From: Cladochytrium replicatum | Lineage: Eukaryota > Chytridiomycota > Chytridiomycetes > Cladochytriales > Cladochytriaceae | Assembly: GCA_025526935.1 (NCBI GenBank) | Contig: JAHLKD010000039.1 | Location: 62,001 to 126,000 of the forward strand | Reading direction: 5' to 3' | DNA length: 64,000 bases | Part shown: positions 8,349 to 53,587 of the stretch, piece by piece | Numbering within the stretch: position 1 is the stretch's first letter | Layout: every line of letters starts with the position of its first letter | Program-made: the position numbers and the translations under genes | Notes under the pieces: generated by a model | Seen by the model: the letters and a program-made list of their open reading frames with translations, nothing else | Told to the model about the DNA's origin: nothing | Database searches by the model: none

Positions 8349-9449
8349 CCTTGGTCGGACGAACGGAGTTTGGGTCCCAGTACAATCTTGGGACTGGTAA
8401 AATTAATTTTCAGCTAAGTCGATGGCCTGCATCCACACGGAGCAGAAACTGGTTGCTGATTGGACGATGGATTGCCGCCAAAAACGGCACCAGTCAGGTG
8501 TGATCCTATTGAACTTTTATGCGGTTGTGTACCGCTGGGTAACAGAGTTGAAGCATGCTGGAAACAGCTTTTTGATTGGACGATGGAATGCCCGAGCAAT
8601 GCCGCAAGGGTTCAACGATTGGGTGTCTCACTTCGAGCAATTTAGTTATGCTAACACCAACACACTGTGCGATAAGTCACGACTGTAAACTTAAGACTCT
8701 CGATATGGCTGCACACCGCTTCCTTCAAAGTTTTCCAAAGTTTTGGTTTCTATTTTCGTTAAGATATTTTTACGGTTGACCTTTCTTTTCTGTGTTTGCT
8801 TTTCGGCGAGAATACAAGGAGCCAGAGCTGAACCAGAAAATGGACTTCAGGGTGCTCCCTCCACGAGGACTTCGCACACCCACACCATACCCCGCACGAA
8901 GAGAGAAAAACAAAAATGTTTGGCAGTACACAATAAAAAACAATAACACACCCCCGCACTCACTCGAAAACGAAAAAAAAGGCAGAAAAACAGAAAGAGC
9001 CACACAGTCGAAAGAAACTTGAGGGAAATGAGGGTCACTCAAACTTGGGATAGAAAAAAAAACTTTTCAGAGGGGAATCATCATAGAAAAAAGAAAATGA
9101 GAGGAATACATGGTTGCATCCTTTCTTGCTCGTATCGAAAAGAGCGCCCGCACAAACGAATTACACCCGCAAAAAAAAGGTCAACCACACAATTTTCATC
9201 AGTGGAGAAACCACCACGCGCAAAGGTTCCGAGACCGGCATTATAAACGAAAATACAAAAGAGCAAAAACGACAGAGAGAGATGAAAGACAGAGAGCTGG
9301 GGTAACAACTTACAATAACAAATGCAAATCATTCCGCATGTTCGGCATAGAGTGTTTCGTGAAAAAAAGAGCAAAAATGCGTGTGGGCATCCACATGGCC
9401 CCAGTACGTTTTCTACCGAGTCGCGTCTATAAATGGGTTGGAAAGGCGT
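8349..9449. other. Intergenic, A-rich, no gene recognised
   Basis: About 1.1 kb without a supportable gene. A short direct repeat (TGATTGGACGATGGA) occurs near 8457 and 8574. From about 8885 to 9310 the plus strand is strongly purine/A-rich, with many AAAA and AGAGA runs, so open frames there on both strands are low-complexity artefacts. Confidence 0.5.
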
Positions 9450-12400
9450 TCATACGCTCCGCGTCGACGTGCCCGACGAAGTCCCCGTCACCGTAGACGC
9501 ACCAGTCGCAGTGGACACACTCGCACTCTCGCTCCCACTCGGCATCGAAGCCGTCTCACTCTCGCTCGCCGTCACGCTCTCGCTCGTTGTCGTTGTAGTC
9601 GTCGTGACGGTCTGGGTCGCACTCTCCGTCGTCAACGTAGTGCTCACATAGCTCGGCCCAGTGCAATAATACACCCTGGTCCCCTTCTTCACGCCGCGCT
9701 CCTCGCACCAATATTCCTTCCCGTAAAGTTCGCAATAGTCCCACTGCGCAAGACAACTGTGTCCGTTCTCCTGGCCATAGCGGTACCCGTTGTGGTCCTT
9801 GGCGGGGTTGAGAATGTAGCCCGTGCACGGAGGGAAGTGCTGCCAATCGTCGCCGGTAGCAAAGATGTCCTTGGATGCGCAGTAGTCCCACTTGTCGTAG
9901 AGCTTGCAGTAGTCGAGCGGGATCAGGCAGCTCTTGTCGTTCTCGAAGCCGTAGCCGTAGCCGTTAGGGTCATATTCAGGGTCAGAGACCTCGGACTCGC
10001 ACGGTGGGAAGTTCTTCCAGTCCTCGTCGTCGGAGCTAGAGTCGCCGCCGTTGCTGATGCCCTTGGACTCACAGTAGTCCCACTTGTCGTAGAGCTTGCA
10101 GTAGTCCAACGGGAGAAGACAGCTCTTGCCATTCTCAAAGCCGTAGCCAAACCCGTTGTCGTCATATGCGGGGTCAGAGACGTCTTCCTCACAGGGGGGG
10201 AAATTGTGCCAGTCATCGCCGTTGTGGCGCTTCATGAACGAAAGCTGGGTAACGGGGACGAATCCGGAGAGATCAGTGCTGCTGGTCGGGTTGGTGAGAT
10301 CTGCTGGCGAAGTTTCAGTGGACGTGGGAGCCGGGCCACTGGAAACATCGGTAGCGGTGTTGTCTGCCGTTGATGTTGGCAGCACCGAGGAAAGGTCGGA
10401 TGTTCCGGTGGATTCAATTGCGGTACTAGTGAGCACGTCGGTAATTGTAACGCTTCCAGTCGGTGTCGGTGTTTCGGTGGGAACGTCTCCCCAGCACTTA
10501 TCAGTCCAGGTCGGTGTGCTTGCATCTGTCACCGTAGGTGTGGAGCCTTCAGAGTCGCCAGTAGCCGTCCCGGTAGGTTCACCTTCAATAGGTGTCTCTG
10601 TTGTTCCGTCACTACCATCCCCAGCATCCGTGGATTCCGCAGGCTGGGTGTCTGAACCTGATCCATCGTCCGTTGCAGTTTCGTTAGGGCTGTCTGTCGC
10701 GGTCTCACTTGATACACCATCAACAGCGGTGGTCTCGGATCCCGATGTCTCAGTGGCGTCGCTTCCAGCGTCTCCAGCGTCTCCACTGTCTCCAGAGTCA
10801 TAGGTACCAGTGGGCTCATCGTCTCCAGAGTCTCCAGCGTTGTAGGTTCCGGTCGGCTCGCTGTCAGAGCCGGTGGTTTCATCGCACGTCTTCGTCGAGT
10901 AATCATCAGTTCCGGTCTGCGTTCCGGTGGAGGACGTCTCGGCAGAGGCCGTGTCCGTCACAGTTCCGGAAATACTTGCGCTATCAGTAGCAGTCGCGGT
11001 TTCCGACGAGCTCCCGCTTATAGTACCGGAACTCAACACACTCGACAAGCTCGTCGTCAACACAGTCGACGACCCAGACCCAGGTCTCGCAATCGCAAGC
11101 GACGAATTGACGTAACGCAGCAGCGCCTGGATCGCCGTAAGCGACATCGCGCCTGCAGACTCAACTTCCGCGCTTGCGTTCGCAAAGATACCAAAGTTGG
11201 AACCTTCCACGTTGAGCTGGTAGCTGTACGGAACCCCAAACGACAGCGCGCTGTCGAGCGCGCTGCCAGTGTCCTGGCCAATCACGTCGTAGTATTGTCC
11301 AGTCGGGAGGGTAACGTTGGCGGTGAGGTTCAGGAAGTCGCTCGCGGCAAGGGCTCCGGCTTGCAGCTCCGTGAACTGGACGGCACGATCGGAGCTGTAC
11401 CCATAGGGATACAGGAGGTGCTGTGGACAAGAAACGTCACTTGGTCTGAGCAGTCTCAAACAAGTGATATAGCACGTACCGACTGAGGGGCGGACTTAAC
11501 CTCAACGAATGAGACCAGGCTTCCAGCAGTCAGGTTCTGCACGTCTTGGAGGTAGGTTGACAAAATCTGTGTCTCAAGTGCCTCGAGAGGCTGGAATCCC
11601 TTGAACGAGGGGGAGCAAGTGGTGTTGCCGCTCACGGTTGCGTTCCATCCGCTGACGTAGTTGCGCTCCAGGTTCTAAAAAAAGCATGTCAGCACACTCC
11701 ACGAAATACAACAGGTCTCAGCCAACAAAACGTACAACACCAGCACAGTTCGAGCCGGGGAGAGACTGAAGGTTCTTGGGCCACAAGCGTGCCAACGGGT
11801 CGGTCAGCGTAAGATTGTAAGCGTCGACGTTCAGCACCGGGATGAAGGTGAAAGAGAAGGTGTCCCTGAAACCCTGCAGTGCCGGGTCCGCAGTGAAGTA
11901 GTACGCAATGTAGTTCACCACGGCGGGCGAAAGCCAGTCGCGTCCGCTTGAGCCACCTAGAAGAACGACGTGGTACTTTCCAGTACCAACAGTCAATCCA
12001 TGCACGGTCCTGTTGAGCGCCGTGACACCCAGTGGCGAGATCGCGGCTCCGATGGTGCCGGTGGCATTGAGGTACACATCGACCGGGTGGAACTCCTTGA
12101 ACAGTCGTGAAGGGTCAGTCACCTTCACAGAGCCGTCCTCAAGATCGATCGGAACAGTGACATTTGTAGCCACAGTTCCGGTGAGCGCCCGACGCGTAAG
12201 GGTCTTGCGGAAGGGTCTCTTGACAAAGCGACGGAACACAGCGCCGAGAACCGACTCGACACGAACAAGACCATCCTGAGGCAATGGCGTTCCGTCGGGG
12301 TTCAAATCGGCCAGGAGGACCTGCATCATGTTGCCGGACAAGTCACGGAATGCATCGACAGTGGCAGAATGGTTGCGGTCGAGAGCTTCAGCTTCGATGA

Positions 12401-12836
12401 GTGCAGTGACGTTGGGGGCGAGAACCTCCGACGTCACATTGACGTTTACTGCCAGGGAGGGAGGGAGCAAGACATCCCAGAAACCAGGTTTGGACGGAGA
12501 CCCTCTGTACTTGTAGATGACATCGAGAAGATTGGACTTACAATACAAGCGAGGATTAGATTAGACAGATTCAATTGCAAAGACACACACCTCGACGAAG
12601 GAAGAGAGAACGGCGGTGTCGGTAGCAGGAGGGTATGTAAGGTTGAAACGCACGAGCGAGTAGTCGTAGTAAGAAGTCACATTTGGAGATAGAAGCGAAG
12701 ATGAGGGGTCAGAGTTGCCCGCCGGAGCCCTTTGGTAGAGTCTTATCGGAGTCGCAGAAGCAAAGGCCAGCAGCGACGAGAGCAGGAGGAGGAGTAGTAG
12801 TGCCGGCGGTGGATTGATACCGGCCGGCGTAGACAT
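9450..12836 (-). CDS. Secreted M14-fold pseudo-carboxypeptidase with Ser/Thr linker and three CBM10/dockerin-like repeats (4 exons)
   Basis: Exons 12836..12591, 12536..11736, 11674..11480 and 11420..9450 join in frame to about 1070 residues. The order is: signal peptide (MSTPAG then a poly-Leu core); prodomain-like region; M14 carboxypeptidase fold, about residues 200-525; Ser/Thr/Asp/Glu-rich linker, about 530-805; three tandem Cys-rich repeats, about 815-1005; Thr/Ser tail. The fold is recognised from VVLLGGSSGRDWLSPAVVNY (family GGIHAREWISPA), FIPVLNVDAYN, NLERNY and LLYPYGY. All zinc ligands are lost: HxxE has become SxxD and His196 is replaced (K in VEVKSAP). The general-base Glu270 position reads Gln (YSYQLNVEG). 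The fungal Ecm14 family is a known precedent for inactive M14 proteins. Each C-terminal repeat carries four Cys and a GYGYGFEN-KSC motif resembling CBM10/fungal dockerin (PF02013). The likely role is a wall-associated binding or scaffold protein. Confidence 0.8.
9650..10220 (-). repeat. Three tandem coding repeats of a Cys-rich CBM10/dockerin-like module
   Basis: Inside the last exon of the pseudo-carboxypeptidase gene. The units run approximately 10220..10045, 10035..9855 and 9855..9650. Each reads DDW/EDW, then FPPC, then D-P-x-x-D-x-NGxxYGxEN, then SCL, DYC and a final W/Y-C. Units 1 and 2 are nearly identical; unit 3 is more diverged and ends with an extra RVYYCTGP. The spacing of aromatic, Gly, Glu-Asn and Cys residues resembles the CBM10 core (NGWGWEN..SC). 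The domain assignment is tentative; the repeat itself is certain. Confidence 0.8.
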
Positions 12837-13716: not shown

Positions 13717-16700
13717 TTAAATCACAAACTCGCCGTTCTGCAACGGCAACCTCGGCAAACACTCCAAGTAAAGCCTCTTGAATCCCCAAATGTCGCCCCT
13801 CACCCTCTTGAAATCAACCACATACAACCCTGCGAGGTTCTTGATCTTGTGGATCTCAACCGTGAACCTCACCTCACCTCCCACCCAACTCAACGGCTGC
13901 GTCTGCTGCGCCTGTTGCGCCTGGAACTGCACGTCCTCCGCCCCTGCCGCGGTTCCAAACAATACGCTCCCGTTCCCGTTCCCGTTCACGCTTCCCTGCC
14001 TCGCAAACACAAACGAGCTCCGACTCCGCGTCGACACTGCGTCCCCCCCGCCCGAACTCAACCTGCTCACTCCGGGCGACGTCCCAAGCTGACTGAAACT
14101 CGTCACCGTCATCTGACTCTCCTCCCCAAACCCTACGCCCCCATTTCCAACCCCGAAACTCACACTGCTACGGACCCCGCCAGGCTGCATGTAAAACATC
14201 GGTCCTCCTCCAAACCGCCCCGTCCCCATCCCGCTCGTCGCCGCAAGGTACGCCTCCGTAGCAAGCCGGTCCACCTCCACGAGCCGCGCGTCGCCCTTGC
14301 CGTCGTACCCCTTGTTCCATGACCGCCCGTGCGACGCCATGTACTTGATCCGCTTGAGGAACGAGATCGGCATCGACGCAAACACGTTCGCCATCGCCCG
14401 CTTGCTCTTGTTGCGCTTCACGTGGCCGTTGATTGTCGGCGACCCGATCGATCGCACGTCGATCGAGACCCGCGGCTGCGACGACGGCGCCGCAGGTACG
14501 GGCACGGGCGATGCCGGCGCCGTAGGGTAGGCGGCTTGCACCTGCCCTTGCTGGAACACGCTCGCCGCTTCCGACTCCCGTCCGAAACTCACCGTGTCGT
14601 CGTTCACCGCCATACTCTGTCGCCTCAGCACCGCTTCCTCCCCGCCCACTCCGTTCACAGTCAACACGCTCATGTTCCAGTCAGAGTTTGAAAAGATGTG
14701 GCCGACCGCACCGTGCGTCACCACCCCGTTGGGAGACCCGCTCTCGCTCCTCCGCGGGCGGATCACCTTCAACTTCATGTCGCCGTCTGCACGGCTCACA
14801 ATCAACCCAAGCTCTTCAAGCACATGCGCAATCTCAATAATCAGCAACTGCGGCGCTTTGCTAGTCAACGCGCGACGGTCCAAAGGTCCATTATGGTACT
14901 TTAGTTTCGCCGCGACAGCGCTGTTCGGCGCAAGTCCACCAGGGCTGTTGTGCAACGACGATCCAGAGCTTCCCGCGCGCTTGGGTGTCTTGTTGAACAT
15001 CGACACGCCAAACATCGACCCTTCCTTCCCATTGATGCTCCCTTCGCGCACAGAGCTGCTCGTCGTCGACGCGTTCATGTATGTCTCAGAGTACGAGCTT
15101 GCCGCTTGGAAGCTCGGGCGTCCGACCGCGTTCGAGCTCCCGTTCCCGTTCGGAACCGAAACGCTGACGTTCGTGGTCGAGTCCGACACAACGGATAGGT
15201 TCTGCCTCGACACCAAGCCGTTCGAGTTCTGGTACGGCAGGTACACGGCCGAGGTCGACGTGCCTGCGGTGCCGGTAAGATACATCGTATGTCTCGTGCC
15301 GTTGCCGATGACAGGTGAGTGTATACGTGTTGGACTCTCCGTCAACTCCTCGTCAAACATCGATACAGCGCGCGTCTTTGTACCCCTGCGTTTGAAGATT
15401 CCAAATACTTTTGACTTGCGTCCTTCAGAAGTGCTCATGCTTCGCGACATGTCCACGCTCGCACGTCCGATGCCGTCGACAGCTGGCGAGCTGCGCGTGC
15501 TGGGGGTTCGTGTAATGTCCATGCTGTACCCCTTTCGCTCCTGTACAACAACCACACGTGGTTTGGGCGCGGGAACGGCGGCCGGGGTAACGTGCGAAGG
15601 AACAACGCTGTCGGCGGGCGGGGTAGCGTCACCATCCTCCGCCATCGGAGTGTCATCCATCATAGTGACCTCAGCAACAGCTGTCGTAGGGACTTCGACC
15701 GTGTCGGTGGGCGCATCCGCAACCGTCGCGGCAGCAGGCTCGTCGATCTCCATCGCCTGCACCTTCTCCGCAACCTGCTCAACAACAACAAGGTCCAAGC
15801 GATGGTCTTCCTGCGTCGGCGTCGATGGTCCCTCGAGCTCGTTGTCAGTCGCAAACAAGCTCTCCATGGTCTGTCGGACACCTTCAGGCCCAATCACAGG
15901 CTGGATCTCCAAGCCCGCCGTTGTGCTAGCAGCAGCCGCGACCGGCGCGGCAGGCGCATCTTGCGGCGTGCTTTCGACTGCTGGAGTCTCTGGTGGCGAC
16001 AGCATGGCAGGCGGTGTGCTGACCATCACCACCTTCATTGGTGTAGGCGTCGAAGGTTCAGGAACTTCAGTCTCAAAGACGATTTTCTCGATGGGAGTGC
16101 TTGGAACTTGTTGTGTGGGAGCAGTGTCGTTATCTACTGACACGTCTGGCATAGGTGTGTCGACTGGGGCAGACGGGATAGGTGTGGTGTTGTTGTTGAG
16201 CCGGTCTTCTGGGGCCGGCGTGGCCGCGGGTGTAACGTACAATCCATCTTCCACCTTTTGCATAGAAAATTAGCCGACAGTTGAAAAGCAAAATTGAGAA
16301 CACAACAAACGTACGTCCTTGGCGAGAGCGGCCGCTTCCTCAAAGATGTAAGCGTAGGGAGCAAGCCATCTGCAATAAACAGTGTCAAAAAGAAGACCAT
16401 CAATCATTTGTGTAGGCTCCCCCACCTATGTGACATGACATCGTTCATCTTGGCGCGGTACTTCGGATCTGGTACGAGCATCTTTCGGAGCATGCTACGA
16501 GCGTCATCACTGACATAGTCCGGGAACTCGAGCTCGGTTTCGAGAATGTACTTGTACAGCAGGTTGATGTTGTCGCCTTCGGGGTTCGCTGGGTCGTCAT
16601 CGAACGGAAGATAACCGCAAAGCATGGCGTAGAGGATGACACCACACGACCAGATATCAGCTGCCTCTCCAACATATCCCTGCCCAAACACATTAATTTC

Positions 16701-17864
16701 GTGAGATGTTTCAAAATTTTTTCCCCTCACATCAGAGATGACGAGTTCGGGAGCCGCGTAGCACGGGCTTCCACAACTAGTAGTCAGAAGCACTCCAGGG
16801 TCTCCGTCCTCGTCCAGTACGCCCCAAACTCCTCCCATTCCCTGAGTTTCAGCGGTCTCTGCTATGCTGCGGTTAGCAAAGCCAAAGTCGGTGATGACAA
16901 TGTTTCTGTGCGAGTCGAGTAGCAAGTTTTCGAGCTTGAGATCGCGGTGGACGATATGGTTGCGGTGGAGGTAGTGGACACCGGCAATGAGCTGGGCAAA
17001 GAACCTACAGGCGTCTTTTTCTCGGAGGTAGCGGTGGGCGAGGATGTGTTCAAAGAGTTCGCCTCCGGAGGCGTACTCCATGACCATTCCGATGTACTGG
17101 TCGGTCTCGACGACTTCGTGGAGCTTGACGATGAACGGGTGTGATACGGACTGCCATAACAAGTGTCAGAACACTACAAAATTTGGAAAATTCTGTTATC
17201 CCAAACCTGAAGGATAGAAATCTCGCGCATAAGTTTCGCTCCGCGGTCTCCATTTTCCAGCGACTCTTTCTTGATCAATTTAATGGCCAGCTGTTTAAAA
17301 TAAGATATAGAATCTGGGTCAGCGTCACTTCAGGGAGAGCGATCAACTTCACTATGGTACTATTCTCCTCTTCATCCAATTTATCCTCTGTATCATGTCG
17401 CGAAGCGCCATGAATTAATTCAACTCCATCTCCAACCAGTCGTCGAATGGCAACCACATGGCGCGAAACCTACTCCGTGCCCGCCCCTTCTTGTTATTAC
17501 CCCAGTCAATGATAGCATGGCGCGAATCACCATGCTCTGCTCCGTTCCCCCTCCTCAAATGTGTCACCCGGTCCCCACTCTTCTCATTCTTGAGGCCAAG
17601 CAAATTACACGGCGCTCCGCGCCTTCTCCTTAGAGTCTTACTCGATCTCCACCGTTGTTCTCCATTGGTTTCGCATACCTCCTTCCCGGTGAGAGTATGA
17701 ACGGCCAGCTTGACCTTTCCAAACTCTCCTTCACCAATGGTTTTCCCGAGCCTGTAAGGTCCAAAGTTCGCCTGTTTCCTTGAAGAGTGGTGATGCGACG
17801 ACGAGTGGTGTGTTCCGTGGTGGTGGTGGTGAGCGGCTGTTGCCGAGCCGGCGGGTGGCGACAT
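13717..17864 (-). CDS. Kin4/Ppk1-like CAMKL serine/threonine kinase with split KA1-like C-terminus (6 exons)
   Basis: Exons 17864..17679, 17290..17207, 17150..16731, 16679..16426, 16369..16315 and 16254..13717 give about 1178 residues. The kinase domain is complete: GEGEFGKV (45-52), catalytic Lys in AIKLIKK, HRDLKLEN from residue 158, DFG at 178-180, and TSCGSPCYAAPELVIS in the activation segment. The YASGGELFEHILAHRYL and GYLPFDDDPANPEGDNINLL stretches match the Kin4 group, which delays mitotic exit when the spindle is misplaced (S. cerevisiae Kin4; S. pombe Ppk1). A His/Ser-rich N-terminus precedes the kinase. The long disordered middle (about 340-790) is Pro/Thr/Val-rich. A KA1-like domain is split: LLIIEIAHVLEELGLIV near 800 and VRFTVEIHKIKNLAGLYVVD to GFKRLYLECLPRLPL at the end, with about 290 residues between. 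KA1 domains bind acidic membranes. Intron 16680..16730 is 51 nt and in frame, so retention would insert 17 residues in the activation segment. Confidence 0.88.
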
Positions 17865-38796: not shown

Positions 38797-41746
38797 GGAA
38801 TGCCGGGGACCTTTCCTTCACCTTAGAAAAATAACTTTCCCCAGACACATGTGTGCATAACTCAGCTTGGAACTTGACAAGATGTCTTTGAACACTGCGA
38901 TTGCTTTAATTAGGTTGGCAATGACCTTGCAAAATGAAGAAACTCAACTGCAGGTCGACTCTCGGAGGACCCATTGAATGTGCACCCTTATAAATCAGCA
39001 CGCTATTAAAAACACCATTAAGACTTAGAACAAAGATGGAGCCGGTGCTTCTCCGCCTGAAGAAACACACCGCGTATCACCAAAACAAACTTAATATTGC
39101 TTTGTGACTTTCCAAACAAAGTCCTACCCGAAAGTCTGCTTCTTATTATTGAAGCAGAGATGGTTGCTAAATTGTCCATCACGTTGGAACATTTCAGCTC
39201 CAACCCACTCGATTTCCATCAGTCCGGATATGGACATGACGTCTCCTACCTTAACGAGAATCAATGAGATAGAAAAAAGTGAATGAAGCACCTTAAAGCA
39301 TCCCTTAGGCATGAGCTAATCGACCAGAGAGTTGCCCGTTTACGAACGAGCAGTTAACACTTGTTTCAATAGAGTGAGTTATCACCAAAGCTGCTTCACA
39401 AGTACACGAGTAGCTAAGATAGTCAACCCAGCATTACAAACAATAATCACGAATTCTATTTTTGCTGACTGCTACATTAGGCAGCTGTTGACAGCCAACT
39501 CATCTCCGCATTATTTGATAGTGGCAGACCACACCCAGGGAGGTACGGAGTGGAGTGCTCATGTACATATTTGAGAGAAGCCGCACTTTCGCTCGCGGTT
39601 CTTGGATCCGAGGGTTTACCTTCATGTTTTTTCTCATCAACTCCCGGGAGCCCAGTTCCCGTGAAGTATGGCTTCTCAATGCACATCTCCGAAAGTAACC
39701 GGTGTTTCCTGTTGTAATCGTTGCTAGGACCGGTGAATGCCTCGGGGACGCCACTCCCCCTTGGAGGAGCATCGCACAAATCCTCAACGCTCAATTTGCA
39801 CTGTTCATTGGAGAGTTTTAGCAAATTCACATAGAAGTTTTTCAATTGATGTACCCGCGAAGGGCCTTCAGCACATCGAATTGATGGTGGAGCTATTTGG
39901 GGAAGTTCTTCGTTTTTATGACCAGGCGAGATTCTTTGAGGGCTCCGTTGTTGAGGGACGACCCACTTCGATCAGATCATAATGGCATAAGTAAAGTTGA
40001 CGGAAAGATCTCTCACTACTCACCTTATCGTTCGTGGTGCATTGTCGAAAATTCTCAAGCACAAAACCAGCCCTAATTTGCGACTGAGTCAAGCTCAAAA
40101 AACCAGATCATTACCAACCATGCGTATGATCGTTCAAGTGTGGTACAGTTACATCCTCGGGAACCAACCCTGTGCAAGCCTCCAAAGTTGTCATCGTTCT
40201 GCTCGTCAACTGTCTGGAGAAATCTTTAGAAAGACCTCGAGCCCCTAGCGAATCACCCCAACAACAGGTACGAACATAACCTGGCTCAATAAATTGCCAA
40301 CTAAGGCATACGGGAGGCAGACACTGGAGCATGACGTATGGCAGGGACAGTTACCCTCCATCCGCACACATCCGTAAAGTCTCCGATTGTTTCTTAATAA
40401 AAAATCATGACCCTGGCAAATTTAAACCTCTCAAACTGAACACTTCTTTAGAACGAATCCACGCTCAGTGCATAAACCTACCAATTGAAATGCAGGATGC
40501 ATTCAAGAAATTCAAGGTGAGATAAGTCAGAACAATTTACCAAAACAAATTGGATCACTTGTCTTGATTTGGAGCGTTCAGGCTGTCCACGCCTGGAGTA
40601 CCAAATGCCAGATCAGGGTGCGCAAAACATAGAATCAGCCGAGTTTTCGCTTTTCTCGATTTTCCTCGGGAACGGTCAGCTGCTCGTTGGCTGGACAGAA
40701 TCAAGCAGTGGATATCCACAGTGGGTTTCATTTCTCCTTGCGCTATTCAATCTTGCAGCAGAAAAGCTTCCCAGAAGAATGACTCTCTTGCCTCATCAAT
40801 GTCCAATGGTTGGACCTCCGTTGTGATAAAATTATTGAGAATTATGTTGTAACAAACAACCATAACTTGAAATAAACAAAGGAATGGATTGTTGAATATC
40901 GGATATCGAGGATAAGCGCAACTGACACTGTAGCTAGAATACCTTGGCATTTTGGCTCAGTGGATAGTTTTAACATGGATGTGTGTGGCCGCTCCCATCG
41001 CTCGAGAAAATTGAATGCGAGGTTCCTGACTACACCACTGTAACTTTTCGGAATATACGTTAGCATTTACAATTCGATCATTACCGACATGGTCCGACCG
41101 GAGTATTTCTTCTTCCCTTTCCAGTGCCATCCCCCGCTCAAGTCGATCAATGCGTTCCCATTATGGCTGCATGGTAACTGTCAACGATGCTCCGCACTGC
41201 AAAAAGCTCACCGTAAGAGCCACACAGATCCTTTCCTGTGGGAAAACCAATATTTTTAAAGTTTGAATATGTACCACGACCTCCCACTATGCAAGGACGA
41301 TAGCCATTATGGAGAGAGTATGAAGGGCAAAAATATGGGATGCAACTGGGACGAGGTGGCCGACAAAACAAACAGGTTACCACTTGGGGTAAATGTACCG
41401 GGATCTAGCAGGACGAGCTGTTTTTGATACGAACTTGAAGATAAGGATTTGAACTGTCTTCGAAGGGACTCTGAATGATGGGTGAATGTGAGCAGACCAA
41501 TTGATCCACTGGAGGAAAACCGGTCTGCCAGTAATTTGGTACAGCGACAATGGATAAGAGACTGTAGTCAATGGTGCTTTGTTGACCGCGGGATGTCCAA
41601 TCAGCTTTGAGACAAAGTTGTATCAGCAACACAAGTGGCCATAGAGAGAAAAGAGTGGGCATCAATCTGATAACTTTTTCGAAATTTGGTCATAATGTGA
41701 GGGTAAATAGCTTAGTCTTTGTAAACAACTTGGCGCCCGCAATGCT
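38797..41746. other. Gene-poor interval, about 3 kb, unassigned fragments only
   Basis: Minus-strand frames near 40098-39916 (GFVLENFRQCTTNDKVSSE) and 39845-39477 (NFYVNLLKLSNEQCKL) are somewhat protein-like and could be exons of one unknown gene. A plus-strand piece near 40430-40520 (LERIHAQCINLPIEMQDAF) is similar in quality. None has a recognisable domain or a complete splice model. Confidence 0.35.
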
Positions 41747-48985: not shown

Positions 48986-50264
48986 GTGATTACTAAATAG
49001 TGCTTCAATCAGACAATGGATTCTTTGTTCCTAAACGGGAACAAAGACCTTTGGACTGATCCACGTTCAGAGGTGGTCTTAGTGAGCAAACCATCCCGGT
49101 GAGCAGAACAAGTATGTATCGTTCCTCAGCTGTTGAGACAGATTCAGAGGAATCGAGTCGTGCAGTGCTATCGATCGATTAAGGGCTCATTGTTTCTTGC
49201 TTGCTTTCTGAGTGTTTCGTACAGTGAGAAGTGAGGCATGACCAGAACTACCTAAGTGAAGCCAAGCAAAACTGCGAGGAATTGATCAACCGTGGAAATC
49301 GACACAAGATTGCATCAAAATCAAAATCAAAATAAAATGGCTTAGGAAACCCTTTATCACTTTTCAAAGAGCAGAAGAAGAGGCTCTGTGTTCCTGCCGA
49401 AGCTGAGCATACGGATCTGGGGTGTGGAAACTGTATAAAGTGCCTTCCCAGGTGTTAACATTTCAAGAAATGTTTTAGCTGGCAGCGTGGCTTGTGATCA
49501 CTAAAAAAACAAACCACTGATTATTAATAATTGTCATAAAACATAATTGTGGTTTTGGATCTCCTCATATTTAGTAACACCAAAAATTGTATCAATAAAC
49601 CTCAGTGATCTATTTAAATTGATCGCCACCATCGCATTCACGCTGTTGGAATGAGCAGCCTCACTACAAAGTAAGCCTGGCAACCTTCCCTCCAAAGCAG
49701 CACTGCCAAAACTTATTGGAAATTGGACCTTTTTTCTTCTCGATCCACAAACACTGTTGGGAAACAATCCCATGGTAGGTGATCCTCAAAGCCCAATAGG
49801 TTTTAAATATTTAACAGGGATCCATTGGGGATACAGGGGAATGTGTCGTAATTCTGCTCTAGGCTCTATCTCCGCAATCTTCCAGCACACTAGCTTTGGC
49901 GCACTGCAAGACTGGATTCACTGGAAAGGTGAAATTAAACCCCTGAATAGCCACCAATAAAACAATACCCAGGAACACAAACTAAAAAGCCAACAGGTTT
50001 TGTCCCTCTCCTTCCACCCAGGTGCCAGCATTTAGTTTCGAATGGGCAGGAGTGTGAGTAGAGCGCAAACAGTCTAACATAGAAGGGGTTGTTACTGGCA
50101 GTGCAAGAAAAGGTAGCATCAGGGGAAAGATTCAATGGAACCACAAGGAACTTACAGCATTTGATTCTTAAAAAGTATTATGTACATGCCTAACCTCCAG
50201 CTCCATTCCCACTTTCTGGTAAGTGCAAGCAGGCAGACCACAAAGCTTCGCAACATTTGTAGAA
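48986..50264. other. Sequence between the two repeat copies, no gene recognised
   Basis: Several short frames on both strands, none with a known domain. If the flanking repeats are the ends of one element, this would be its interior and is non-autonomous. Confidence 0.35.
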
Positions 50265-50400: not shown

Positions 50401-50439
50401 TCAGTAAGTATTACTCTGAAATAGCACATTCTATATGAT

Positions 50440-51470
50440 CAAATGAGCCTTACAGCTACGAGAGGCGATGGACAAAATATGCTGGATTGAAGATTCTATG
50501 AAAGATTGGTCCAAAAAAAGCAGAGCAATGAGAGGTCCTACAGAAGATCCAGGATGGTTCAAGTGTATTTAAAGGCAATCAAGGGGTCTAGATACCAACA
50601 CTTCCACTCGTTATTCCATCTTATCGATCAACTGGAGGACCTAGAGGAGGTGGAATTGGATGAAACCTTCGGCATAGCATTTCAAAATGCACTTGACAAG
50701 CTGCAGCATATTACTCGATTGCTAAGAGCCCGTGTTTAGTAGTTGCTATGGTACTCGATCCTCGTTTTAAGGATCAATATTATCGATTTTCAAAGGCTTG
50801 GGAGGAAGAAGTAGGAAGGACTCAGGTCACCCTTGTGCAGAAAGTCTGGGAGGAACACAGGAAAGAAGAATAGTGGACAACAAACTAGGACATTGACACA
50901 ATTCCAGCGGAGCTTCCGGTGATAGACAGAAAAAAAATGGACGTTGAACGTTTGAGAGCCATTAGATTGGTTTTCAACTGGCAAGAAGAGATTCATGAGG
51001 AAAAAGATCTGGATCACTATCTTGTTGATCAGGTACTCCGCTGTATTGATTCTATTGGGAAGCAGATCAATAATAATATTATGGATTGGTGGAAGACTGT
51101 TGGAAGTGTGAACTTTCCAGCCCTGAGCAAGATGGCAATGGACTGTATTGGAATACCAGCAACAAGTGCTCCAGTCGAACAAAAGTTTTCAGCCAGATTT
51201 GATTTGGTACCTGCAATTCGCAATCACCTTGCTTTGAAGCATTCAAAAAGTGAAGCTCGTGAGGATTTTGCGAAGGTGCACAATTTAGAAGGGGATTCCG
51301 ATGTGGTCTTTGAGCTGGAAGCTACCAATGATAACCCAACCTTTAAACATATAATTGTTGTTTTGACTGTTCATCAGTTGAAGTACCGTCCAGGAGTTGA
51401 GAAAGTGTCCATGTGGACAGTATCCTATGCTGGGAGCATTGATAGAGAGGTTGGTTGTATTTGATAGAGA
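50440..51470 (+). mobile_element. hAT-family transposase relic
   Basis: Three plus-strand pieces in different frames: a helical segment 50506-50739 (FHSLFHLIDQLEDLEEVEL), then VVAMVLDPRFKDQYYRFSKA from 50739, then 50919-51463. The last has WWKTVGSVNFPALSKMAMD and IPATSAPVEQKFS, the hallmark of the hAT C-terminal dimerisation domain. Stops and frame changes separate the pieces, and the N-terminal BED finger and catalytic acidic residues were not found. hAT elements move by cut-and-paste; this copy is inactive. Terminal inverted repeats and an 8-bp target duplication could not be identified by eye. Confidence 0.8.
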
Positions 51471-51793: not shown

Positions 51794-53317
51794 TTAATAA
51801 GTTGAATATCTTCTCCTCCCTTGCACCCATTCTCCAAACACGACCTCTTTCGTGGATATCGTCAGTCCCTCCTCCTCATCCTTCCTCGGCAAATGCTCAA
51901 TCTCCACCACGCAATGCGTCTCGTTCCTGGCCCAGTGCAACCTCTTCCGTTTCTGTATAAACTGCCCCGCTCCCTTCACATACACCTCGTACATTCCTGT
52001 ACAGTCCAGCCGCACCCACTCCAACAACTCCAAATCAAACCTAAACGATCCCAGCAGCGCCGTGTTCAACGCCGCATGTCCGAATTCCCGCACCAGCAAG
52101 CTTTCCGTCGACGCAGGTATCCACGTCTCCGCGCCTTCAAACGTTGCCCTTCGCAGCGGCTGGAGTAGGTAGATATTGTACTTGTCATTGAGTCGTTTGC
52201 TCTGCGCCTGCGCAGTTGCGTACGCGACTTTCGAGAGCGCGACGAGGTCGATGTAGAGTCCCGTTGCAGTATCTATGAAACGCGCTTCGATCGCGTTGTG
52301 GATGTCCGAGAGTCGGTTGAAAGCGAATGGGCTGACGTCGAGGACGTAGCGGTCACGCCATACGCCGAGCGCTATGTAGCGGGATAAAATGTTTTGGGTG
52401 GGGGTGGGAGGCAAGGCCTCGTTCACGCCGTGGGTGGTGCCGTTGAGTGCGGCGAGGTATTCGAGTGTGCTGCCTGTGAAATGGACTTGGAGGGCGTCGA
52501 TCCAGGGGAGCCGACGCTCGCCCCACCACCAGCCGAGAAGTGTGTCCCCGGAGAGCCAGTAGGGTATTCTGTGTTTGTGTGCGAACCCAGCCCATGCGCG
52601 GAACAGGTATCGATATGCGACGGAGCGTTCTTCGTCAGTGAGAGAATGAATAGGTTGGACGTCTTTAGGGACCCGGTCGTGCCAGTGCGGTCGATCACGG
52701 AAGGAGAAGGCTAAAGTTGCTCCGTTCCGGGTATAGATTGATCGATCGTAGACAGGCCGATCCTGTTCGTTGAAATAGCTCCGACCACCGGAGGGATAAC
52801 CCGGTTTCTGTCTCCGATCGAAATCCCGTTGTTGCTGTTGAAGCCGTGGTGACAGAACCACTTTAAAATCGTCCCATTTGAGCCATAGCTCAGCACCAGT
52901 GACTAAAGCGGACGGTTTTGCTCCCTGCAGGAACCCCCAGCGTCCGCGGGGGCCGACCGCGGCTACGACCTTTCCGGCATCCTTGCCGAGCAGGGAGCGG
53001 CCATGGGCCAATCGCTCTGCGTCGAGCTGCGACTGGTTTTTGCCTAGGAGGATGTGGAGGATCACGGCGAGGAGGAAGGCGATGAGGAAGAGGTGGAGGA
53101 GACGGAGGAATGTGGAGCGCTTTGATAGAGTGCAGAGGCGGAAGAAGAAGGGTCTGCGAGTCGTTTGAGTGAGCTGAGCAGGTTCCAAAGACGATCCGTA
53201 GAGGAAAAACCAGGGAAATGTTGGGCGAGCGAGGTTGGGAGAGTCGATTGACAGGATTCCGAGACGCGAGAAGCGCTTCTTTCCCGAGGCATCATCGACC
53301 GAATTGACGCCCAGCAT
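51794..53317 (-). CDS. LicD/Mnn4-like Golgi type II membrane protein
   Basis: A single exon of 507 residues from the ATG at 53317. A basic N-terminal cytosolic tail precedes one membrane helix (about residues 70-92, FLRLLHLFLIAFLLAVILHI), then a stem and a lumenal domain. The LicD/fukutin nucleotidyltransferase-type core is recognised from HKHRIPYWLSGDTLLGWWW and from NAIEARFIDTATGLYIDLVAL, which matches the Mnn4-type DARFID..TGL.IDI motif. Mnn4-like proteins promote mannosylphosphate transfer onto fungal glycans in the Golgi. Oddly, the segment normally reading PWDxDxD is PWIDALQV here, so the acidic pair is reduced to one Asp and catalysis is doubtful. The gene is divergent from SEC1. No intron is needed; a weak alternative splice near the 3' end cannot be excluded. 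Confidence 0.8.
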   Translation of the reverse strand: MLGVNSVDDASGKKRFSRLGILSIDSPNLARPTFPWFFLYGSSLEPAQLTQTTRRPFFFRLCTLSKRSTFLRLLHLFLIAFLLAVILHILLGKNQSQLDAERLAHGRSLLGKDAGKVVAAVGPRGRWGFLQGAKPSALVTGAELWLKWDDFKVVLSPRLQQQQRDFDRRQKPGYPSGGRSYFNEQDRPVYDRSIYTRNGATLAFSFRDRPHWHDRVPKDVQPIHSLTDEERSVAYRYLFRAWAGFAHKHRIPYWLSGDTLLGWWWGERRLPWIDALQVHFTGSTLEYLAALNGTTHGVNEALPPTPTQNILSRYIALGVWRDRYVLDVSPFAFNRLSDIHNAIEARFIDTATGLYIDLVALSKVAYATAQAQSKRLNDKYNIYLLQPLRRATFEGAETWIPASTESLLVREFGHAALNTALLGSFRFDLELLEWVRLDCTGMYEVYVKGAGQFIQKRKRLHWARNETHCVVEIEHLPRKDEEEGLTISTKEVVFGEWVQGRRRYSTY

Positions 53318-53587
53318 TTTCAACTTTTCAACACGCACACGAACCAACAAGCCTTCTTACAGAGGACTTGGAAAAAAAGAAAGATATTCGGGACGGTTGC
53401 TCGAGCGATACAAAGACTAGTGCTAATCTACAGGTGGGACTGAAGGATGCTCTTGCTGTCGGTCTCATCGAGTCTACTGATTATTACTGTGCTCCAGTTG
53501 TCCTTCCGTTCGCTGACCTTCCAAGACCTCTACCTCAAGCTACAGCTCATCGCCATCATCTCGTAGAAAGCGTCTTCCACCCGCCCT
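53318..53587. promoter_or_regulatory. 270-nt divergent upstream region, LicD-like and SEC1
   Basis: The two start codons (53317 minus, 53588 plus) face away from each other across this interval, so it must contain both promoters. No specific element is evident. Confidence 0.4.

Follow-up and report, generated by a model that had tools for sequence, protein, structure and literature searches.

A predicted procarboxypeptidase-like pseudoenzyme joined to three CBM10/dockerin-like repeats in the chytrid Cladochytrium replicatum

A stretch of 64,000 nucleotides of Cladochytrium replicatum (GenBank assembly GCA_025526935.1, contig JAHLKD010000039.1, positions 62,001 to 126,000 of the forward strand), hereafter the window, was analysed for a gene predicted to join a catalytically dead carboxypeptidase of peptidase family M14 to three repeats of CBM10/dockerin type. 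The gene was modelled on the minus strand (12836-9450) with four exons encoding 1070 amino acids and with GT/AG introns, all of phase 0. The splice sites were picked by consensus and reading frame rather than from a transcript, and the model is thus a predicted one. Its extent is exactly the coding span 9450..12836 of the initial annotation, whose start at 12836 and stop at 9450 fit the model. Moreover, exon 4 comprises 656 codons without a stop, opening within the M14 domain at HLLYPYGYS and continuing to the tail. As this exon is one open frame, the fusion of M14 and repeats is independent of the splicing guesses, and a gene-fusion artefact was rejected because the end of M14 and every repeat lie on it. 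An extension beyond the stop into an anchor exon was also rejected, by eye from the sequence, and a hidden intron may lie inside the linker. The features of the gene are the following:

12591..12836, minus strand: exon 1 (residues 1-82), with the start codon, the signal peptide and the donor GTGTGT
11736..12536, minus strand: exon 2 (residues 83-349), with the remainder of the pro-region, a basic processing stretch (by eye) and the first half of M14
11480..11674, minus strand: exon 3 (residues 350-414), M14 domain, with the positions of N144E and H196K
9450..11420, minus strand: exon 4 (residues 415-1070 and stop), with the C-terminal part of M14, the linker, the three repeats and the Ser/Thr tail
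12288..12689, minus strand: pro-region (about residues 50-165, borders by eye), spanning intron 1 and alignable with the pro-region of a paralogue
11181..12035, minus strand: Peptidase_M14 domain (residues 250-494, Pfam), spanning introns 2 and 3, with S279, D282, K409 and N484 at ligand or catalytic positions
10221..11072, minus strand: Ser/Thr/Asp/Gly-rich linker (residues 531-814, 284 residues), from the composition of residues 531-811, with no Pfam match
10059..10220, minus strand: CBM10/dockerin-like repeat 1 (residues 815-868), from Pfam, profile, alignment and structure model
9867..10028, minus strand: CBM10/dockerin-like repeat 2 (residues 879-932), from Pfam, profile and alignment
9693..9854, minus strand: CBM10/dockerin-like repeat 3 (residues 937-990), the most divergent, with no Pfam match alone
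9450..9656, minus strand: Ser/Thr-rich C-terminal tail (residues 1003-1070), from composition, with no hydrophobic anchor seen by eye

In the profile search that had been proposed as a check, residues 250-494 matched Peptidase_M14 (PF00246) with 103.8 bits and E=1.7e-29 (cut-off 21.6), and on this match the domain is assigned, by descent, to the A/B subfamily of M14. The nearest solved structures were pancreatic-type carboxypeptidases, CPA2 (1aye) being the top PDB match (E=5e-19) in a list of 50 sequences with E no higher than 1, which ended in an unrelated one (E=0.76). Active-site residues were mapped, in carboxypeptidase A (CPA) numbering, after the protein had been aligned by MAFFT with CPA2 and the product of a predicted-active paralogue on C4 (L023). 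All the zinc ligands were found to be changed, namely H69S (S279), E72D (D282) and H196K (K409), which bears out the initial reading of an M14 fold with HxxE turned into SxxD and the second zinc His replaced. Gln had been read at the position of the catalytic Glu; instead, the E270 column holds Asn484, as the HMMER alignment concurs, and Q482 lies two residues upstream. The His of HLLYPYG was considered as a restored zinc ligand and rejected, by eye, as it lies six residues past the H196 column. Furthermore, R127P, N144E, Y198A and Y248G were observed, while R71 and R145 were retained, which leaves two of ten active-site positions. A loss of catalysis is predicted from these changed residues: the zinc ligands and E270 that characterize an M14 A/B enzyme are gone, which supports the view that the fold cannot act as a normal zinc carboxypeptidase. 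CPA2 and the C4 paralogue agree at 99 positions, of which 36 were retained in the window gene, and the retention at the active site was not significantly below this background (P=0.22). Since the loss is not concentrated at the active site, a selected rebuilding of the pocket is not claimed.

Outside the M14 domain, a hydrophobic signal peptide was recognized by eye at about residues 1-28. The pro-region behind it is procarboxypeptidase-like and aligned (MAFFT) with that of the C4 paralogue; it had no Pfam match of its own, and the pro-region of the paralogue matched Propep_M14 at 18.6 bits, below the cut-off of 22.1. A total of 16 N-glycosylation sequons were counted in residues 1-530. The Ser/Thr/Asp-rich linker, put at about 275 residues in the initial annotation, was confirmed and measured at 284, with Ser and Thr making up 41% of it. 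Secretion fits the signal peptide, the 16 sequons and the Ser/Thr-rich linkers, and the protein is thus likely to be secreted and glycosylated; no glycosylphosphatidylinositol (GPI) or membrane anchor was seen by eye. A 22-base sequence occurs four times in direct orientation, overlapping or close together, inside the linker (10759-10840 of the window), with spacings of 9, 9 and 42, and these spacings by multiples of 3 suggest that the linker grew by slippage.

The three four-Cys repeats reported initially were found as units of 54 residues, with 24 of the 54 columns invariant and with repeats 2 and 3 being 78% and 56% identical to repeat 1, respectively. Their proposed kinship with CBM10/dockerin modules held by profile (Pfam, a bacterial profile and hhalign) and only weakly by fold ranking. 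The search with Pfam CBM_10 (PF02013), suggested together with the initial annotation, placed the triplet just at the cut-off (23.0 bits against 23, E=1.1e-4) and the single repeats below it (19.9, 19.6 and no match), as were the two window-gene matches in a PF02013 scan of the genome (18.9 and 18.4 bits). A profile built from 36 bacterial-type CBM10s (1E8R and 35 distinct segments) gave 28.4 bits on the repeat block compared with a best of 8.6 in 2,000 shuffles (1,000 plain and 1,000 with Cys fixed), so that the resemblance of the block is not due to chance; single repeats scored 13.7, 14.1 and 7.3, the value of repeat 3 falling inside the shuffle range. Similarly, hhalign aligned the repeats with the bacterial CBM10 profile over 16 columns with 82% probability and a score of 27.9 (best of 100 column shuffles, 21.8), and with two dockerin modules with 11% probability, although the CBM10 and dockerin profiles are of very unequal depth. 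The part in common with bacterial CBM10 is the core G-Y-G-F-E-N-x-x-S-C-L, with Tyr-Phe as the aromatic pair in the first two repeats and Tyr-Gln in the third. One repeat was also modelled, as had been suggested (predicted local distance difference test, pLDDT, 86.6); at its C-terminal end the model has two additional helices and a further Cys, an extension attributed to each of the repeats. Its best PDB matches were 2j4m and 1e8p, first and second, both from one Piromyces dockerin protein, which agrees with dockerin kinship in rank but came with non-significant E-values. For the triplet, these Piromyces equi Cel45A dockerins ranked first (2j4m) and eleventh (1e8p). Nei-Gojobori estimates of non-synonymous (dN) and synonymous (dS) divergence were 0.135/0.946 for repeats 1-2 and 0.464/2.525 for repeats 2-3, the ratio being undefined for repeats 1-3 (dN 0.346), and the excess of dS over dN across 54 codons suggests purifying selection on repeats 1 and 2. 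On the opposite strand, a 336-codon open frame (9363-10373, plus strand) runs antisense across the repeats and the tail; the codon usage of the sense gene is its most likely cause.

Compared with bacterial CBM10 (Cellvibrio 1E8R; the GH5_8 mannanase of S. degradans), the repeats share the core, there G-W/Y-G-W/Y-E-N-x-x-S-C-I/L, the upstream Y/F-P-x-C, the downstream x5-6-C and, with the S. degradans mannanase, the arrangement as a C-terminal tandem triplet. In contrast, they lack the first Cys, bear an extra downstream Cys and an insert of about nine residues ahead of the core, have two Trp replaced by Tyr and by Phe/Gln, and are attached to a dead peptidase instead of an enzyme that degrades polysaccharide. 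The planar Tyr-Trp-Trp face of CBM10 is therefore not reproduced. Some characterized CBM10s likewise vary at this face, and there are CBM10 subgroups without one disulphide and with a five- to six-residue insert (PMC8121702; this and the other papers cited were covered in part).

Among M14 pseudopeptidases, the ascomycete Ecm14 and its basidiomycete sister clade are likewise secreted fungal enzymes of A/B type that have lost activity (PMC7706225, PMC11266112). Ecm14, for which a pro-region and a phenotype in the cell wall are described, retains H69, E72 and H196 and has N144D and E270K as its defining changes, while about half of the basidiomycete clade carries R127Y/H196R/E270H; carbohydrate-binding repeats were not mentioned for either in the portions covered (PMC7706225, PMC11266112). 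The window protein, with S/D/K at the ligands, N144E and E270N, falls outside Ecm14, and the comparison with Ecm14 made in the initial annotation thus applies loosely, to a fungal pseudo-M14, and not to the residues. Moreover, H69 is kept in the five tabulated pseudopeptidases (AEBP1, CPXM1, CPXM2, CPD-III and Ecm14; PMC11266112 Table 2), which places the window protein, where it is lost, further from an enzyme than those five. In architecture, AEBP1/ACLP, CPXM1 and CPXM2 also join a dead M14 to a module holding it to the extracellular matrix (discoidin), and direct collagen binding was shown for CPXM1 (PMC11266112). However, these belong to the M14 regulatory group, all keep H69 and E72 (PMC11266112 Table 2), and carry the discoidin domain N-terminally, whereas the CBM10-like repeats are C-terminal. 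No mention of an M14-CBM10 fusion was found in the parts covered of the open-licence PubMed Central literature on pseudopeptidases and CBM10, including PMC7706225, PMC6690862, PMC11291939, PMC11266112, PMC5428031, PMC8778642, PMC11878562 and PMC8121702.

The origin of the gene was approached through the rest of the genome (50.5 Mb, 198 contigs). The genome holds genes for chitin synthase (PF01644, 22 matches, best E=3.2e-50) and an axonemal radial-spoke protein (PF04712, best E=2.9e-47), which identify a zoosporic, that is flagellated, fungus. The C4 paralogue (L023, G000:C4:157k), with splice sites also chosen by the authors, encodes a pro-region behind a signal peptide recognized by eye, carries the motifs HAREW, HSYSQ and ELRD, and is predicted to be active. 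Introns 1 and 2 of the window gene have counterparts of equal phase, at most a codon away, in the paralogue; because of this match, the pseudoenzyme probably evolved in this lineage out of an ordinary fungal procarboxypeptidase gene rather than being imported whole. In addition, the region of C18 at about 301,200-316,500 (L075, L030 and L073) is a largely collinear duplicate of about 259-21116 of the window, with gene loss; identity is 83% in the longest matching stretch (13721-16940) and about 73-96% across the shorter matches. There, the M14-repeat gene survives as a relic of which only 204 bases of exon 2, with indels, are detectable (L030 4476-4678). That one copy was lost while the other stayed intact accords with a function, without proving one.

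Starting from the architecture, the loss of catalytic residues, the kinship with a carboxypeptidase gene and the CBM10-type core, all read from sequence, we give about an even chance to a secreted pseudo-procarboxypeptidase of M14 A/B (CPA/CPB) type that is tethered by its repeats to polysaccharide and serves as adhesin, decoy or adaptor. The repeats would hold the protein on polysaccharide, either the own wall or the growth material, by summed weak binding, and the flexible, probably O-glycosylated linker would keep the dead M14 fold off that surface. This fold, as a displayed binding domain, might then bind a protein or peptide C-terminus without cutting it, with Arg145 and Arg71 kept; in active enzymes, Arg145 binds the substrate carboxylate. 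Summed binding has a parallel in the three tandem CBM10s of a bacterial mannanase, which bind galactomannan in this way (PMC8121702). The nearest working model is vertebrate ACLP/CPXM, since the pseudo-M14 there carries a discoidin domain, and the adhesin, decoy or adaptor would be analogous to those proteins.

The ligand of the repeats is where this proposal meets its main rival, in which they share the CBM10/dockerin fold yet have a protein as ligand or serve as a disulphide-stapled spacer at the cell surface, the whole being a structural or adhesive wall protein. We hold this to be somewhat unlikely: the planar aromatic face is weakened, the extra two-helix part with its added Cys was confidently predicted for one repeat, Pfam itself describes CBM_10 as 'Cellulose or protein binding domain', and the Ser/Thr-rich tail and linker resemble fungal wall-protein sequence as generally known, but two of the three repeats keep the aromatic pair in the core, the core G-Y-G-F-E-N-x-x-S-C fits bacterial CBM10, and no anchor was seen by eye that would by itself make a wall protein. 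A cellulosomal role, the other tether envisaged in the initial annotation, is unlikely because no other gene with the repeats was found, in searches that were insensitive. The triplet query gave no second repeat locus in the genome at E up to 0.1, and at E up to 10 the three matches of a one-repeat query and the two of PF02013 all fell within the window gene; PF02013 at E up to 0.001 and a double-dockerin query both missed even this gene, and scaffoldins were not searched for. The CC and WGxxNxxWC motifs that define the fungal dockerin family, seen in 2j4m, were absent when the repeats were aligned with it, the core is nearer to bacterial CBM10 than to the dockerin WC motif, and the low hhalign probability against dockerin modules points the same way. 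Furthermore, the window has 49.7% G+C, a base composition unlike that of anaerobic gut fungi, which are very AT-rich. Genuine fungal dockerins that would dock the protein onto a scaffoldin, as has been proposed for celpins, are thus highly improbable, despite 2j4m and 1e8p being the best-ranked fold. Celpins, serpin-CBM10 fusions of anaerobic fungi, are nevertheless a precedent in early fungi for CBM10 joined to a protein that is not carbohydrate-active (PMC8778642).

Two further rivals concern the gene and its catalytic domain. A decaying gene, with one copy lost after duplication and the remaining one drifting, would account for the C18 relic and for the 36 of 99 conserved positions kept; it is nonetheless improbable, as 1070 codons run without a stop over four exons with intact splice sites, dN is well under dS in the comparison of repeat 1 with repeat 2 (a span of just 54 codons, with the estimate averaged over the whole time since their duplication), and duplicated genes usually lose one of their two copies. 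That the peptidase is active with a modified metal site is barely conceivable: D282 might still coordinate a metal and two arginines, R71 and R145, are retained, but at the canonical positions Ser and Lys stand in for the two His ligands, Asn for the catalytic Glu and Pro for R127.

M14 pseudopeptidases are known from vertebrates and Dikarya, with few targets of the dead fold known, and a fusion with repeats that putatively bind polysaccharide offers a direct hint of the location of such a protein. A broader thesis, which we regard as rather doubtful, is that fungi independently evolved the plan of ACLP/CPXM (a dead M14 with a matrix-binding module) with no zinc ligand left, the repeats being a non-cellulosomal CBM10/dockerin branch with a two-helix, extra-Cys extension; this would reveal a role of these modules in a zoosporic fungus where no cellulosome was seen. 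CBM10/dockerin-like modules outside apparent anaerobic gut fungi would bear on the origin of the cellulosomal dockerins of gut fungi.

Regarding other M14 genes, 18 fragments were found in the genome at E up to 0.01, among them the predicted-active C4 gene, its partner copy on C1, an apparently active gene on C10 (L027), copies of decayed appearance and a gene pair on C51 and C36. This pair (L020 2873-4644; L021 minus strand 3693-1922), a second type of M14 pseudopeptidase, shows SPRE instead of HxxE, with the second zinc His not seen and, by eye, a transmembrane-like segment followed by an acidic tail. Further M14 fragments (L026 and L029, at G000:C4:234000-239500 and 296500-302500) look decayed, with stops and frame changes, and in L029 HxxE has become RxxE. 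With respect to the duplicated segments, the window stretch 51794-53356 had no second copy found and C18:320901-330000 had no matches to the window, while short out-of-order matches on C18 were found for 40901-40963, 49001-49030 and 50416-50855. Two further duplicate pairs, C51/C36 with 79% identity along 3.9 kb and C1/C4 with 84% and 82%, would, together with C18, fit an old genome duplication or a hybrid origin.

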